From positions 1,116,001-1,180,000 of the forward strand of contig NZ_JACYXZ010000001.1 of NCBI RefSeq assembly GCF_014842875.1: a DNA stretch of 64,000 nucleotides, written 5' to 3'. The notes under the pieces were generated by a model. The model was not told the origin of the DNA. It did no database searches and saw only the letters and a list, made by a program, of their open reading frames with translations. Positions within the stretch are counted from its first letter, which is position 1. Each line of letters opens with the position of its first letter. The position numbers and the translations under genes are program-made. This document shows, one piece after another, positions 6,311 to 58,310 of the stretch. Source of the stretch: Nocardioides donggukensis (GTDB taxonomy: Bacteria; Actinomycetota; Actinomycetes; Propionibacteriales; Nocardioidaceae).

Positions 6311-6375
6311 GCCGCAATTGCGGCCGTTTGACATGTTCTCGGCCCGAAAATGTGTCAGACGGCCGCAATTGCGGC
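6311..6375 (+). repeat. 65-nt composite palindrome between proS and the HAD gene
   Basis: The 14-mer GCCGCAATTGCGGC, itself a perfect palindrome, occurs at 6311-6324 and 6362-6375. The whole interval is also an inverted repeat centred on 6343, with arms TGACATGTTCTCGG and CCGAAAATGTGTCA inside. Of four arm differences, three become G-U pairs in the plus-strand RNA and one is C-A. The transcript could therefore fold into a stem of about 30 pairs. It ends 15 bases before the RBS of the HAD gene. It may be a terminator, an operator or a small dispersed repeat. Confidence 0.8.
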
Positions 6376-54291: not shown

Positions 54292-55509
54292 ATGACCGCA
54301 CGCCCACTCGGGTTCTCTCCGCGTGCCCTGACCGCCCTCGGCACCGCCGCCCTGCTGGCAGCCACCCTCGTGGGCTGCAGCTCCGACACCGGCGCCGACA
54401 GCCTCGACCCGGCCGGCGAGCCGACCACCGCTGCCGCCCAGGTCGAGCCGGTCGAGATCGGCGACAACCTGGCGAGCCGGACCGCGGTCGCCGTGGACAA
54501 GCAGGTCCGGATCACCGTGCAGGGCGGCACGCTGCGCCGGGTGAGCGTCGCCTCGGAGGACGGGACCCCGCTCGACGGGGCGCTCAGCGACGAGGGCTCC
54601 GCGTGGAAGGCATCCGGTCGGCTGGAGCCGGGCACCGGCTACGTCGTCCGCGCCCTGGCCGAGGGCTCCGACGGCGCGGTCGAGCGCGAGACCCGGCGCT
54701 TCCGCACCGCCGACCTGTCGCTCGACGACCAGACCTACGCCTCGATCGCCCCGCTGGACGGCGAGACGGTCGGGGTGGGGATGCCGGTCGTGGTCACCTT
54801 CGACGTGCCGGTCGCCGACCGGGCCTCGATCGAGCGGCACCTCACGGTCAGCTCCACGCCGCGCCAGGTCGGCTCCTGGCACTGGCTCAGCGACACCGAG
54901 GTGCACTGGCGCCCACGCACCTACTGGCAGGCCGGTAGCGACGTGACCGTCGACGTCGACATCAACTCGGTGCCGGCCGGCAACGGCGTCTTCGGGCAGG
55001 AGAGCCGCCGGATCGGCTTCCACGTCGGCGATGCCAACGTCTACAAGGTCTCCGCCGCGACGCACTCGATGCAGGTGTTCTCCAACGGCGACCTGCTCCG
55101 GACGATCCCGATCACGACCGGCAAGGCCGGCTTCACCACCCGCTCGGGCACGAAGGTGATCATGGAGAAGTTCCGCGAGCGTCGGATGAACTCCGAGACC
55201 GTCGGCATCTCCGAGGGCGACCCGGAGTTCTACGACATCGACGACGTCGAGTACGCCATGCGGCTGACCTACTCCGGCGAGTTCATCCATGCCGCGCCGT
55301 GGTCGGTCGGCTCCCAGGGCAGCGCGAACGTCTCGCACGGCTGCACGGGCATGAGCACCGCCGACGCGGGCTGGCTCTACGGCCTCTCCAAGCGCGGTGA
55401 CGTGGTGGAGTACGTCGGCACCGATCGGCCGATGACCCTCGAGAACGGCTTCGGCGACTGGAACGCCTCCTTCGCCGACTACCGCACCGGATCCGCCCTC
55501 TCCTCCTGA
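54292..55509 (+). CDS. L,D-transpeptidase (YkuD) lipoprotein, LdtMt2-like
   Basis: The enzyme forms 3-3 peptidoglycan cross-links outside the membrane. The 405-residue protein has a lipoprotein signal with LVGCSSD (Cys about residue 25), two Ig-like domains (about 40-250), and a YkuD catalytic domain with IHAAPWSVGSQ and SHGCTGMSTADAGW, holding the catalytic His and Cys (Cys about residue 350). This layout is that of mycobacterial LdtMt2. ATG 54292 is the start. The 3' side carries an array of 21-bp repeats. Confidence 0.95.
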   Translation: MTARPLGFSPRALTALGTAALLAATLVGCSSDTGADSLDPAGEPTTAAAQVEPVEIGDNLASRTAVAVDKQVRITVQGGTLRRVSVASEDGTPLDGALSDEGSAWKASGRLEPGTGYVVRALAEGSDGAVERETRRFRTADLSLDDQTYASIAPLDGETVGVGMPVVVTFDVPVADRASIERHLTVSSTPRQVGSWHWLSDTEVHWRPRTYWQAGSDVTVDVDINSVPAGNGVFGQESRRIGFHVGDANVYKVSAATHSMQVFSNGDLLRTIPITTGKAGFTTRSGTKVIMEKFRERRMNSETVGISEGDPEFYDIDDVEYAMRLTYSGEFIHAAPWSVGSQGSANVSHGCTGMSTADAGWLYGLSKRGDVVEYVGTDRPMTLENGFGDWNASFADYRTGSALSS

Positions 55510-55520
55510 CCCACCCCGCC

Positions 55521-55634
55521 GACCCGTCGCATCTGTCCCGCGACCTGTCGCATCTGTCCCGTGACCCGTCGCATCTGTCCGGCGTTGAGGTCGCCGACCC
55601 GTCGCATCTGTCCCGCGACCTGTCGCATCTGTCC
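55521..55634 (+). repeat. Array of five 18-base repeats with 21-bp phasing
   Basis: GACCCGTCGCATCTGTCC and the variant GACCTGTCGCATCTGTCC start at 55521, 55542, 55563, 55596 and 55617. Steps are 21 bases except one of 33. The array starts 11 bases after the L,D-transpeptidase stop. Inverted copies occur at 56680 and in an array at 58234. There are no unique spacers. Confidence 0.9.
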
Positions 55635-55722
55635 GGCGAGCGTGCGTCTCAATCAGGCGGCTGTCCACAGGCGGAGTCGACCACGGGTGACGGCTGGCTG
55701 ATCGTGGCGCACCCTCGTCGAC

Positions 55723-56676
55723 ATGCTCCCGAGACCGATGCAGCCGTGGCTCGATCCGTGCGCGTCCATCCCCGACGACCGCCCCTTCACCCGGGCGCAG
55801 GCACGGGCTGAGGGCGTCCATGGTCGTCAGCTCCTCGAGTGGACCCGGGCCGGGCTGCTCGCCCACCCGATCCACGGCGTCTACCACGCCCGCCAGCTCC
55901 CCGACAGCCTGGGACTGCGGCTGGCCGTGCTCCGCCTCGTCGTTCCCGAGGACGCCGTGGTCACCGACCGGACCGCCGCCTGGCTGCTCGGTGCACCGAT
56001 GGCGTTGGCGCCCGGCGACCACCTCGTCGTACCCCGCGTCTCCATGTTCCGACCGCCGGGGTATCGGCTGCGCAACGGACTGGCCGCCTCCGGCGAGCGC
56101 ATGCTCGACGACGACGAGATCACCGAGATCGACGGGATCCGGGTGACGACACCGCTTCGGACGGCCTGTGACCTGGGGCGCCTGCTGCACCGCGACCAGG
56201 CGATGGCCGGGCTCGACCAGATGCTGCGGGTGAGCCGGGTCGGCGTCGAGACCCTTGTCGCCTACAGCGGCCGGTTCCGGGGACGGCGGGGCATGCGGCA
56301 GCTGCGGTGCCTCGCACCCCTGGCCGACCCACGTGCGCAGTCACCCGGCGAGAGCATCCTGCGCTTGCGGTGGGTCGACTGCAGTGATCTGCCACGACCG
56401 ACACCGCAGCTCGCGGTCCCGGGACCTGGTGGCCTGGTGTACTTCCTGGACCTGGGTGTCGAAGGTCTGCGGTACGCCGCGGAGTACGACGGCGCCGAAT
56501 GGCACGGACCGGATCGGCGGGCACACGATCAGGAGCGTCGCCGCTACCTCGCCGAGCAGGAGGGATACCTCATCGACGTACTCCGGGCGGAGAACATCCA
56601 CGGCCCGCACCAGAATGCCGAACTGGTGCTTCGGGCCGGGATCGCGCGGGTTCGCAAGCTGGCAGCTCGCCGGTGA
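55723..56676 (+). CDS. AbiEi-like N-terminal / DUF559-type nuclease-fold protein
   Basis: The 317-residue protein has an N-terminal winged-helix-like part (FTRAQARAEGVHGRQLLEWT, GLLAHPIHGVYHARQ), as in AbiEi antitoxin-like domains, and a C-terminal part like the DUF559 (Vsr/PD-(D/E)XK) fold, with SPGESILRLRWVD, YFLDLGVEGLRYAAEYDGAE and a later AEQEGYLIDVLRAENI. The Glu, Asp and Glu residues fit a nuclease core. No partner toxin is adjacent. ATG 55723 is used, with ATG 55738 as an alternative. It sits alone between inverted copies of the 21-bp repeat. Confidence 0.75.
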   Translation: MLPRPMQPWLDPCASIPDDRPFTRAQARAEGVHGRQLLEWTRAGLLAHPIHGVYHARQLPDSLGLRLAVLRLVVPEDAVVTDRTAAWLLGAPMALAPGDHLVVPRVSMFRPPGYRLRNGLAASGERMLDDDEITEIDGIRVTTPLRTACDLGRLLHRDQAMAGLDQMLRVSRVGVETLVAYSGRFRGRRGMRQLRCLAPLADPRAQSPGESILRLRWVDCSDLPRPTPQLAVPGPGGLVYFLDLGVEGLRYAAEYDGAEWHGPDRRAHDQERRRYLAEQEGYLIDVLRAENIHGPHQNAELVLRAGIARVRKLAARR

Positions 56677-56679
56677 CCC

Positions 56680-56697
56680 GGACAGATGCGACGGGTC
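56680..56697 (-). repeat. Inverted single copy of the 18-base repeat
   Basis: GGACAGATGCGACGGGTC (three bases after the preceding stop) is the exact reverse complement of the unit at 55521. The DUF559-type gene is thus flanked by inverted copies. Confidence 0.9.
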
Positions 56698-56742
56698 GGT
56701 GGAATGAGGGTTGAGGTCGCGGAAACGGGGTAACGCCTTTCC

Positions 56743-57255
56743 GTGACTCAAGACACATCACACCTCTCGGGACGGGTCGGGCTCTTCCTGACCACCCTGC
56801 TCGGGCTCGCCGCCCTCATGGTGGCGCCGCTGACAGCGATCGCGCCGCCGGCCGAAGCAGCAGGGATCATCCTCACCACGAACGGAGACGGCACCGGCTA
56901 CGGCGAAGCCGGCGGCAGGATCACCTTCCCCTCGCGCTACAAGGTGAAGATCGTTGAGCCCTGGGCCAACGACTACTGCGGACCCCGCGGCGGGGACGGC
57001 CGCGGCGTCTACATGCGAGGCAAGGCGACCACCCGCAGCGGCACGGGCAAGTGGCGCAAGCACCGCCTCGGCCTCATCGCCTACGACAACAACGGCTGTG
57101 GCTCCACCCCGATGCGCTTCGACACGCGTCGCTGGACCAAGTCCTCGAAGATCGTGTACGTCGAGCTCTGGCTCTGCGAGGAGAACCACAGCGCCTCGGG
57201 CACCAAGTGCCTGCGCAGATCCAGCATCAAGACCTACCGCAACCCCCATCAGTGA
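56743..57255 (+). CDS. Secreted protein of unknown function, four-cysteine
   Basis: The 170-residue protein has a signal peptide (LFLTTLLGLAALMVAPLTAI, cleavage after PPAEAA) and a mature part of about 130 residues with four Cys residues at DYCGPRGG, NNGCGSTP, LWLCEEN and GTKCLRR, enough for two disulfides. It is Gly-, Arg- and Tyr-rich with no motif I recognise. GTG 56743 is preceded by TAACGC (56731-56736) at six bases. It lies 67 bases before a second secreted gene, possibly in one unit. Confidence 0.72.
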   Translation: MTQDTSHLSGRVGLFLTTLLGLAALMVAPLTAIAPPAEAAGIILTTNGDGTGYGEAGGRITFPSRYKVKIVEPWANDYCGPRGGDGRGVYMRGKATTRSGTGKWRKHRLGLIAYDNNGCGSTPMRFDTRRWTKSSKIVYVELWLCEENHSASGTKCLRRSSIKTYRNPHQ

Positions 57256-57322
57256 TCTGCGCCGCTGGCGCCGCGCAGCGTGCCGGTGGCGACCACCCGA
57301 ACCTCAGCAAGGAGATCCATCC

Positions 57323-58159
57323 GTGAAGACCTTTGTGCGCCGTGGCCTCGCCGCCTCGGCCTCCATCGCTGCCGTTGTCGCGCTCGCCGTGGCCACCCCG
57401 ACCAGCGCAGCCCCGACCGACACCAGCCAGCGCGCCGCCGAGGAAGCCTCCTCCGGGGCGACCCTGACCGGCAAGCAGCTCTCCCGCAAGGTGCTCGCGC
57501 TGCACCGCAAGGGCAAGACGGCCGTGCAGATCGATCGTGCCTTGGAGCCGTACGGCTTCTCGATCTCCCGGCCCGCGGCGTACGACGCCGAGCAACGCAC
57601 CGTCGCTGCCCGCTCGGGCGGCGGTGACATGACCGTCTCGGCGCCGTTCATCGTCCATGACGAGGGGTCGCGCTGGTACTGGATGGCCAACTACCGGTGG
57701 AACAACAGTGACTTCAGCAACGACCAGACGTACTCGTGCCGCTTCTACGACCGTTGCAAGCTGCCCGGGAAGGACGCGTACGGCCTGTACTTCGACCGCA
57801 GGCAGGACATTCGAGGCTACTGGGCATCGTTCGGCCACAAGAGCACGTCGCTGCCCGACGCGCGGCTGCTCTCGCCGTGGGAGCGCAACCGCTTCGGTGT
57901 GGTGTTCAAGAAGCAGGACATCGTCTACCGCCCCTCGTCGCCGGACGACCTGAACATGTACTACGGCAACATCACGGTGCAGGTCCACGGCCGTCCGTGC
58001 GGCTCGAGCACGGCGTGGACGAAGTACGCGCACACCTGGGGCAACAAGGGGATCCCGAGCGTCTCCATCAACGCCGGGTTCATGTCGTTCAGCTTCAGCG
58101 GTGACGGCAAGAAGTGGCAGAAAATCAGCCAGCCGGGGGCGAACCGCCGCCGCTGCTGA
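57323..58159 (+). CDS. Secreted protein of unknown function, aromatic-rich
   Basis: The 278-residue protein starts at GTG 57323 after CAAGGAGAT (57308-57316). A signal peptide is clear (SASIAAVVALAVATPTSAAP). A helical propeptide-like part (about 40-110, with LSRKVLALHRKGKTAVQIDR) precedes a region rich in Trp, Tyr and Phe (SRWYWMANYRWNNSDFSND). Four Cys residues (YSCRFYDRCKLPG, RPCGSS and the C-terminal Cys) could pair. I recognise no enzyme family. A strong terminator follows. Confidence 0.72.
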   Translation: MKTFVRRGLAASASIAAVVALAVATPTSAAPTDTSQRAAEEASSGATLTGKQLSRKVLALHRKGKTAVQIDRALEPYGFSISRPAAYDAEQRTVAARSGGGDMTVSAPFIVHDEGSRWYWMANYRWNNSDFSNDQTYSCRFYDRCKLPGKDAYGLYFDRRQDIRGYWASFGHKSTSLPDARLLSPWERNRFGVVFKKQDIVYRPSSPDDLNMYYGNITVQVHGRPCGSSTAWTKYAHTWGNKGIPSVSINAGFMSFSFSGDGKKWQKISQPGANRRRC

Positions 58160-58172
58160 GCCCTGTTCATAC

Positions 58173-58210
58173 ACGGCGTGAGTCCCCGGTCATCTGGGGG
58201 CTCACGCCGT
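58173..58210 (+). terminator. Terminator after the second secreted gene
   Basis: ACGGCGTGAGTCCCC (58173-58187), loop GGTCATCT, and GGGGGCTCACGCCGT (58196-58210) form a 15-bp stem with one U-G pair, followed by CCTCTTT. Confidence 0.85.
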
Positions 58211-58233
58211 CCTCTTTAGGTTCGAGCCAGTGC

Positions 58234-58310
58234 GGATGCGACGGGTCGCGGTGCGGATGCGACGGGTCGCGGTGCGGATGCGACGGGTCGCGGGACGGAT
58301 GCGACGGGTC
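58234..58310 (-). repeat. Array of four inverted 21-bp repeats
   Basis: GGATGCGACGGGTC occurs at 58234, 58255, 58276 and 58297, exactly 21 bases apart. In reverse complement the unit is GACCCGTCGCATCCGCACCG plus C, closely related to the array at 55521. It lies between the terminator and the stop of the MFS gene. Confidence 0.9.

Follow-up and report, generated by a model that had tools for sequence, protein, structure and literature searches.

Genes for proteins that combine an AbiEi-type DNA-binding domain with a REase_MTES_1575/DUF559-type nuclease domain, which are common in Actinomycetes, are enclosed by inverted copies of a short repeat at a much higher rate than other genes, and this repeat differs from gene to gene and diverges together with the protein. 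The starting point was a 64,000-nucleotide stretch of the Nocardioides donggukensis genome (contig NZ_JACYXZ010000001.1, positions 1,116,001 to 1,180,000; here called the window), in which such a nuclease-like gene is accompanied by inverted arrays of a 21-bp repeat between positions 55521 and 58310. The repeats are probably the cognate elements of the nuclease gene they enclose, in a layout resembling that of repetitive extragenic palindromic (REP) sequences and REP-associated tyrosine transposases (RAYTs), with the tyrosine transposase replaced by an AbiEi-type protein that carries a PD-(D/E)XK-type nuclease. In the following, genomes are labelled G and loci L plus a number; G000 is the source genome (3.41 Mb).

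Inverted repeats often flank genes of the AbiEi-nuclease family

How regularly are genes of this family flanked by inverted repeats? The flank score used here is an ungapped local comparison of the 260 bp upstream of a gene with the reverse complement of the 260 bp downstream, with a threshold of 15 in the early tests and of 19 in the pooled ones. Ten genomes, chosen because they hold repeat elements, gave 37 homologue matches and 30 loci, and 22 of these 30 family genes score 15 to 56, compared with a maximum of 12 among 150 control genes; the repeats themselves differ in sequence from gene to gene. In a search of the class, the best-scoring 30 loci were taken, of which 28 were usable (L205 and L216 were left out for flanks shorter than 100 bp), and 22 of the 28, including the window gene as L190, score at least 14, a value reached by 1 of 35 controls. 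Pooling of both sources, without L177, L205 and L216 for the same reason and with the window gene represented by L160 instead of L190, yielded 56 family loci, of which 42 reach a score of 15 and 37 a score of 19. The neutral control consisted of 800 kb from two genomes with 542 genes, or 540 after removal of two family genes, and of these 540 only 2 reach 19 (37/56 versus 2/540; Fisher p 3e-42). Divided by source, 21/29 loci of the ten chosen genomes and 16/27 of the class search score at least 19. When upstream and downstream flanks were taken from different family loci, a score of 15 was reached in 3.5% of 400 pairs.

The same picture emerges from scans of contiguous sequence. In the full 800-kb control, 4/542 genes score at least 19 in inverted orientation, namely the only two AbiEi-family genes found there and two genes of the DUF222 type, and in 464 kb of the source genome (twenty stretches, two of them picked because they hold the paralogues) 3/349 genes reach 19 in either orientation, which are all 3 family genes found there; this test leaves out a fourth, weaker family match at C5:177767 (E 6e-9). 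The trio comprises the window gene and two paralogues, and their repeats are quite different from each other. Two DUF559 genes on Tsukamurella plasmids are flanked as well (scores 25 and 40). Among 40 further, lower-scoring homologues of the class, 11 score at least 19 in inverted and 18 in either orientation. As a separate observation, three distant DUF559-type homologues (L184, L187, L314) are each bracketed by a GCGGTTTGG..CCAAACCGC palindrome that is common to them.

Repeats diverge with the protein they enclose

Closer proteins have more similar repeats. For the 42 flanked loci, from which L177, L205 and L216 are again absent, protein identity and repeat similarity are correlated with a Spearman coefficient of 0.37, a value matched in 0/2000 permutations, albeit the statistic still includes general genome relatedness. 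A repeat similarity of at least 12 is found in 33% of 58 pairs at a protein identity of at least 0.5, in 12% of 113 pairs at 0.4-0.5 and in 0/690 pairs below 0.4. Moreover, paralogues within one genome carry unrelated repeats (L160, L178 and L186 in G000; L161 and L174 in G103), and at a locus shared by G017, G182, G021 and G190 (L162, L163, L165, L167) the repeats vary between species groups while, judged by eye, both flanks agree. A pairing of nuclease and repeat had been one of the suggestions of the initial annotation of the window, and as an association it is now strongly supported by the pooled flank test, the co-divergence and the scan of the source genome.

Dispersed copies of the window's unit in related genomes

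The 13-mer core of the window's unit, GATGCGACGGGTC, is present in 108 of 215 genomes of the genus, mostly in one or two copies, and a 21-bp tandem pair (at most 2 mismatches) was found in 2/215, the source genome and G017. A degenerate form of the unit occurs 61 times in G017, 107 times in G182 and 13 times in the source genome. In these relatives the element is a 28-bp palindrome, GACCCG(G/T)CNCGTTNNAACGNG(C/A)CGGGTC, from which half-units repeat outwards on one or both sides. With at most 1 mismatch the palindrome is found in 9/215 genomes (66 copies in G182, 22 in G017, 17 in G190, 11 in G021 and 5, 4, 2, 2 and 1 in the remaining five) and its reversed pattern in none; the source genome has no copy at this stringency. 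Allowing up to 3 mismatches extends the number to 28 genomes, each of the 19 added ones having one match, and with the reversed pattern 4 genomes then have one match each. Across the genomes of 84,980 species the exact palindrome occurs at 23 loci, in Nocardioides only, and a scan of the same set with the tandem pattern gave no match. In G017 and G182 the AbiEi-type gene at the matching locus lies between two complete elements of the type that is dispersed in the same genome.

The spacing of units is fixed within a genome. Considering neighbours up to 60 bp apart, it is 21 bp in 52/52 cases in G017 and 32 bp in 46/46 cases in G182, 8/8 in LHD-245 and 4/4 in CBZ_1, and in G182 the 46 cases include 36 distinct spacers at the constant period of 32 bp. 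Elements are kept at the same junctions across species with flanking DNA of about 75-82% identity, arms being gained or lost and the spacing being species-specific. At one junction (L123:4000-4260 versus L048:5850-6060), G182 has one element type and N. carbamazepini CBZ_1 the CGCAGATTGAAC type.

Where do the dispersed elements lie? In a survey of clusters with at least 2 cores, which covered loci from G017, G182 and the named genomes and used genes called by a script checked on the window, 38 of 69 clusters lie in convergent gaps, 27 in tandem gaps, 1 in a divergent gap, 1 in a called open reading frame and 2 at locus edges; the 182 gaps of at least 60 bp in the same loci comprise 85 tandem, 52 divergent and 45 convergent ones. 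Solo elements, those without a gene inside, often start within 15 bp of a stop codon. This distribution bears on the idea that the repeats are operators: an AbiEi-type repressor would act on the upstream repeats, the dispersed copies would be sites of a local or global regulator, and the nuclease fold would be vestigial or otherwise used. AbiEi and the related Rv2827c are indeed reported to bind several inverted repeats, of 23 bp, in their own promoters (PMC7319586). Nevertheless, this explanation seems unlikely, as the flank test needs repeats on both sides and hence also downstream of the gene, as dispersed elements favour gene ends and divergent gaps are rarely used (1/69 clusters against 52/182 gaps in this survey, 3/22 clusters in G364 and 1/10 in G087, two genomes with other repeat families), and as the nuclease residues are invariant in 22 sequences that, the window protein aside, share only 24-52% identity with it.

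The position at gene ends could also suggest that the elements are bidirectional terminators, insulators or hairpins of mRNA ends selected at that place, the link to the nuclease being incidental. In line with this, the convergent and tandem clusters are often within 30 bp of a stop, and four solo elements fold better than shuffled sequences (z -15.5, -10.3, -8.3, -3.7). Yet no T run is seen by eye beside the elements, the window arrays lack strong hairpins, and the association with family genes is left unexplained, so that we regard this possibility as very unlikely.

Dispersal in other repeat families

Dispersal is also found for repeat families of independent sequence. The repeat GTGATCATGCA flanks a family gene in G244, G303, G364 and G242, which contain 413, 328, 90 and 45 copies, respectively. 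In G290, where the flank reads CTGATCATGCA, there are 8 copies of GTGATCATGCA, and 19 other genomes searched hold 0-4 copies; the reversed control gave 1 in one genome and otherwise 0. Among these 19, the flanks in G264 and G329 are of the TTGATCATGCA type and that of G256 is a more distant variant. In the stretches fetched from G364 the copies occur as inverted pairs with long hairpins, in clusters located in 12 tandem, 7 convergent and 3 divergent gaps. G087 has a 26-bp unit in 10 arrays on 7 of 20 stretches, including those around a family gene and two DUF222 genes, a few of the spacings being irregular or multiples of 26. In the source genome itself, a solo element is made up of two palindromes of a further type:

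6311..6375, no strand: solo element of two GCCGCAATTGCGGC palindromes whose starts are 51 bp apart, located 12 bp beyond the end of a called gene

The GCCGCAATTGCGGC element also brackets the AbiEi-family gene of L371 (G000:C4) and recurs in L362 and L366, and within the 464 kb of the source genome its palindromes are paired at 51 bp start to start in 6/6 cases.

The protein family

The N-terminal part of the window protein (residues 22-166) matches AbiEi models of PADLOC with a best E-value of 5.5e-17. In Pfam, AbiEi_4 and AbiEi_1 fall just under their cut-offs and REase_MTES_1575 matches weakly. At an E-value of 0.01, the C-terminal part matches REase_MTES_1575 in 15/22 family members and DUF559 in 9/22; the window protein is not among the latter, so that of the original label, a DUF559/AbiEi-like protein, the AbiEi half holds, supplemented by the weak REase_MTES_1575 match, and the DUF559 half does not at this threshold. 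Across the 22 aligned homologues S207, E210, D243, E254, D256, G257, H261 and R272 are invariant, and the acidic residues E210, D243, E254 and D256 may form a PD-(D/E)XK-type catalytic site, as judged from the alignment. The region of the invariant residues resembles the active-site region of PvuRts1I- and 3hrl-like PD-(D/E)XK nucleases, a weak similarity over about 60 residues (E 0.0011 for 3hrl, 0.02 for PvuRts1I). Vsr-like endonucleases presumably belong with these as kin of the C-terminal domain, and we know of no repeat association for either group. A single-sequence AlphaFold2 model of the window protein was unusable (mean predicted local distance difference test score, pLDDT, 35.6). PF01797, the Y1 transposase domain, is not among the Pfam matches of the 22 members, which are AbiEi_4, AbiEi_1, REase_MTES_1575, DUF559 and four single weak matches.

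A profile built from the 22 members matched, at an E-value of 1e-30, in 133 of 197 genomes drawn from Actinomycetes and in 71 of 90 genera. The names currently given to proteins of this family are DUF559, REase_MTES_1575 or lone AbiEi antitoxin; to our knowledge no role has been tested for them. Many of the genes share a further upstream feature: TCCACAG or its complement is found within 260 bp upstream of 48/56 family genes versus 36/434 control genes, with 28 of the 58 occurrences located between -59 and -49 relative to the called start, and also upstream in 18/40 of the more distant homologue set. We take the motif to resemble DnaA boxes.

Layout of the locus in the window

Starting from ykuD (54292-55509), the order is left array, nuclease gene, single inverted unit, two genes for secreted-like proteins, hairpin, right array and a gene for a transporter of the major facilitator superfamily (MFS):

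55521..55634, minus strand: left array of five units with the GATGCGACRGGTC core (read on the minus strand), between the ykuD stop and the nuclease gene
55662..55671, plus strand: TGTCCACAGG, TCCACAG-type motif upstream of the nuclease gene
55723..56676, plus strand: nuclease-like gene, 317 residues, AbiEi-type DNA-binding domain and REase_MTES_1575/DUF559-type nuclease domain (from model matches and the alignment of 22 homologues)
56680..56699, plus strand: single unit in inverted orientation (core at 56685), directly 3' of the nuclease-gene stop
56743..57255, plus strand: small secreted-like protein 1, no family match, secretion read from the N-terminus
57323..58159, plus strand: small secreted-like protein 2, no family match, secretion read from the N-terminus
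58173..58210, no strand: hairpin (-36 kcal/mol, z -9.4) followed by TCCTCTTTAG, between secreted-like protein 2 and the MFS gene
58230..58310, plus strand: right array, four units spaced 21 bp apart, just 3' of the stop of the MFS gene (itself on the minus strand)

The cores of the left array start at 55521, 55542, 55563, 55596 and 55617 on the minus strand (spacing 21, 21, 33 and 21), with GACCTG replacing GACCCG in 2/5 units, and those of the right array at 58235, 58256, 58277 and 58298 on the plus strand (21, 21, 21); the spacers of the arrays are 8 bp. The single unit at 56680-56699 is complementary to 55594-55613 at 20/20 positions, and the right array matches the left one in its core and over a portion of the spacer only. 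All 8 exact matches to the 13-mer GATGCGACGGGTC in the whole genome are at this locus, and the reversed-pattern control gave 0; the arrays are therefore not due to chance. The repeats that the initial annotation described at 55521-55634, 56680 and 58234-58310 are thus real, and the genome-wide count also excludes that the unit occurs thousands of times at random. When at most 1 mismatch is allowed, the core is found at 32 places genome-wide, of which the 10 at this locus are the only closely spaced ones. The hairpin at 58173..58210 is probably an ordinary terminator. No AbiEii toxin gene lies beside the nuclease gene in the window, the neighbours being YkuD and two proteins without family match.

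A proposal that each unit faces the same side of the helix, its spacing being two helical turns, is possible for this locus; the 26-bp period of another family is not a whole number of turns, however, and same-face phasing is therefore rejected as a general rule, the periods found being 21, 32 and 26 bp, besides pairs 51 bp apart. Several other candidates were rejected. A coding use of the 21-bp units is ruled out by inference, as the 32-bp period breaks the frame; phage origin by 0 matches of the tandem and palindrome patterns in viral contigs; plasmid spread by matches in only 3/72,556 records, covering 56-67% of the protein; an RNA-only reading by the combination of strong solo hairpins, weak window arrays and modest covariation; and an array of clustered regularly interspaced short palindromic repeats (CRISPR) by the 8-bp spacers, the inversion of units across the gene and the lack of a cas match among the six neighbours scanned.

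A mobile three-gene cassette is not supported

Do the nuclease gene and the two genes for secreted proteins move as one unit between the inverted arrays, as the initial annotation had considered? The outer arrays are inverted and do enclose all three genes. In relatives, though, the genes are found separately at this junction: in 20 ykuD sites fetched, G146 has both secreted genes without the nuclease gene and without the window's repeats, and in G030, G203 and G091 the nuclease gene is present and the secreted genes are missing. Furthermore, the nuclease gene alone has a unit at its end (56680), and the outer arrays each lie just past a gene stop, like solo elements. A common cassette is thus extremely improbable, and secreted-like protein 1 is outside the repeat-nuclease pair. 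The nuclease genes of G030, G203 and G091 have different flank repeats of their own, with inverted scores of 31, 36 and 14, the last being below the threshold of 15 at a direct score of 16. In G091 the gene is oriented the other way, which agrees with an inversion between arrays without proving it. Of the core genes assumed to lie outside the arrays, qcrB, which neighbours ykuD in relatives, is found in 18/20 of the fetched stretches and the right-hand MFS gene in 0/20, and conserved synteny without repeats, named at the outset as a finding that would speak against the proposal, is true for the exact sequence of the window only, as different repeats are present at the junction. Among the 20 relatives, only G146 has the secreted-like pair at the same ykuD-qcrB junction, with 45% identity for protein 1; matches to protein 2 occur in 7/215 genomes of the genus, the source genome counted.

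Observations that weigh against a pairing of nuclease and repeat

The main weak points of the interpretation favoured here are the DUF222 cases, the homologues without flank repeats and the fact that no movement was observed. To begin with the homologues, 19/56 of the pooled set and 29/40 of the more distant ones score below 19. Among 5 DUF222-like genes found in the control sample of 800 kb, two, both located in G087, share flank units with the AbiEi-family gene of that genome:

L287:14264-16330 and L289:1564-3892 (G087): DUF222 genes inside inverted 26-bp arrays of the type found at the AbiEi-family gene

One further gene of the control sample has a direct-repeat score of 34, and hence such flanks are not exclusive to the family. 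For the window itself, the 13-mer is without any copy outside its own locus in the whole-genome search, and its arrays fold no or little better than shuffled sequences (z -0.7, -1.9). For the repeat that flanks the L355 paralogue, the 464 kb contain a single further near-copy, which equals the level of the reversed control, so that dispersal is not shown for it. In G103 the family gene has flank repeats of its own and the 2 dispersed palindromes there are spelled otherwise. Covariation in the palindrome is modest, 0.085 versus 0.057 and reached by 8/500 shuffles, in a set of 36 of 71 copies hand-picked for variety. Finally, no clean empty site was found, nor a strain-level pair with and without the element, among the genomes obtained.

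The DUF222 cases invite the view that the palindromes are passive landing sites, spread by another enzyme, and that nuclease genes of either the AbiEi or the DUF222 type insert between the halves of an element. The flanks shared in G087 and the existence of elements without any gene inside agree with this view; a common site does not predict, however, that repeats are private to each family gene within a genome and diverge with the protein, and we consider a landing site quite unlikely.

A possible mechanism and comparison with known systems

How could a nuclease and a repeat be linked? In our interpretation, that of cognate repeats, the protein would bind its own repeats and help to spread or keep them. 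Beyond the association, dispersal, fixed spacing and co-divergence that are observed, binding, cutting and copying may be pictured as follows. The AbiEi-type domain would bind the repeat unit, which is plausible because AbiEi and Rv2827c bind inverted repeats in their own promoters. The protein might then nick or cut at the unit, and repair or replication might copy the unit, or a pair of units, into new places; solo elements would be non-autonomous copies. The window would represent a reduced case, with arrays lacking the central palindrome, no copies elsewhere and a right array split off by two unrelated genes.

The closest parallel are the REP/REPIN-RAYT systems (REPtrons). RAYT genes are reported to be always flanked by two inverted REPs, and in Stenotrophomonas 37 to 427 perfect REP copies per genome and trees of the same shape for RAYT proteins and REPs are described (PMC2817692). 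The features in common with these systems are that the gene lies between two copies, inverted to each other, of a short intergenic repeat that is mostly palindromic, that dispersed copies number from tens to hundreds, that inverted pairs occur, and that the repeats diverge with the protein (PMC2817692, PMC3733652, PMC8266576). Dispersal of this kind is seen in G182, G017, G244, G303, G364 and G242, and not for the window's own unit. In contrast to RAYTs, the family proteins have no Y1 domain (PF01797) and instead an AbiEi-type DNA-binding domain with a PD-(D/E)XK-type nuclease, the repeats include tandem arrays of half-units with fixed period, and the hosts are actinobacteria, which the portions of the REP papers at hand do not name as RAYT hosts. 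Inspection of the repeats by eye revealed no constant GTAG tag; CGTC lies within the stem of some Nocardioides units (GACCCGTCGC) and not as an unpaired end tag. As the layout is RAYT-like and the enzyme a different one, we read the system as a gene-repeat pair of REPtron-like type in which the partner is a nuclease.

Other systems are related in part. The type IV toxin-antitoxin system AbiE shares the antitoxin domain in the N-terminal part of the protein, and its AbiEi is reported to bind multiple inverted repeats (PMC7319586), but the window gene has no adjacent AbiEii and a C-terminal nuclease instead, and the repeats lie also downstream and are dispersed in some genomes. As in miniature inverted-repeat transposable elements with an autonomous parent, the solo inverted elements look like a gene-less form of the gene-bearing unit; unlike there, the family protein has no DDE transposase. 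No paper on a pairing of DUF559/AbiEi proteins with repeats was found in the literature searched, the coverage of which is incomplete, so that this is no proof of absence.

A wider proposal, which we put forward tentatively and hold to be somewhat less than probable, is that of a second, independently evolved REP-propagating system, widespread in Actinomycetes, in which AbiEi-REase (DUF559/MTES_1575) proteins would each recognise a private hairpin repeat and copy it by nuclease-driven repair, taking the part that the tyrosine transposase has in RAYTs, and which would account for a large share of the short palindromes found between genes in actinobacterial genomes.

Significance

The gene-repeat pairs resemble selfish repeats of a class already known from bacteria, although the enzyme involved is an unrelated one. 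If each family protein pairs with its own repeat, proteins that are common in Actinomycetes would gain a testable function, and the protein-repeat pairs, with their diverging specificities, would be a resource for studies of DNA recognition. If true, the proposal would also account for the families of short palindromes seen between genes of high-GC genomes and would offer, beside the RAYTs, a second natural experiment on the long coexistence of a bacterial enzyme and a tiny repeat.

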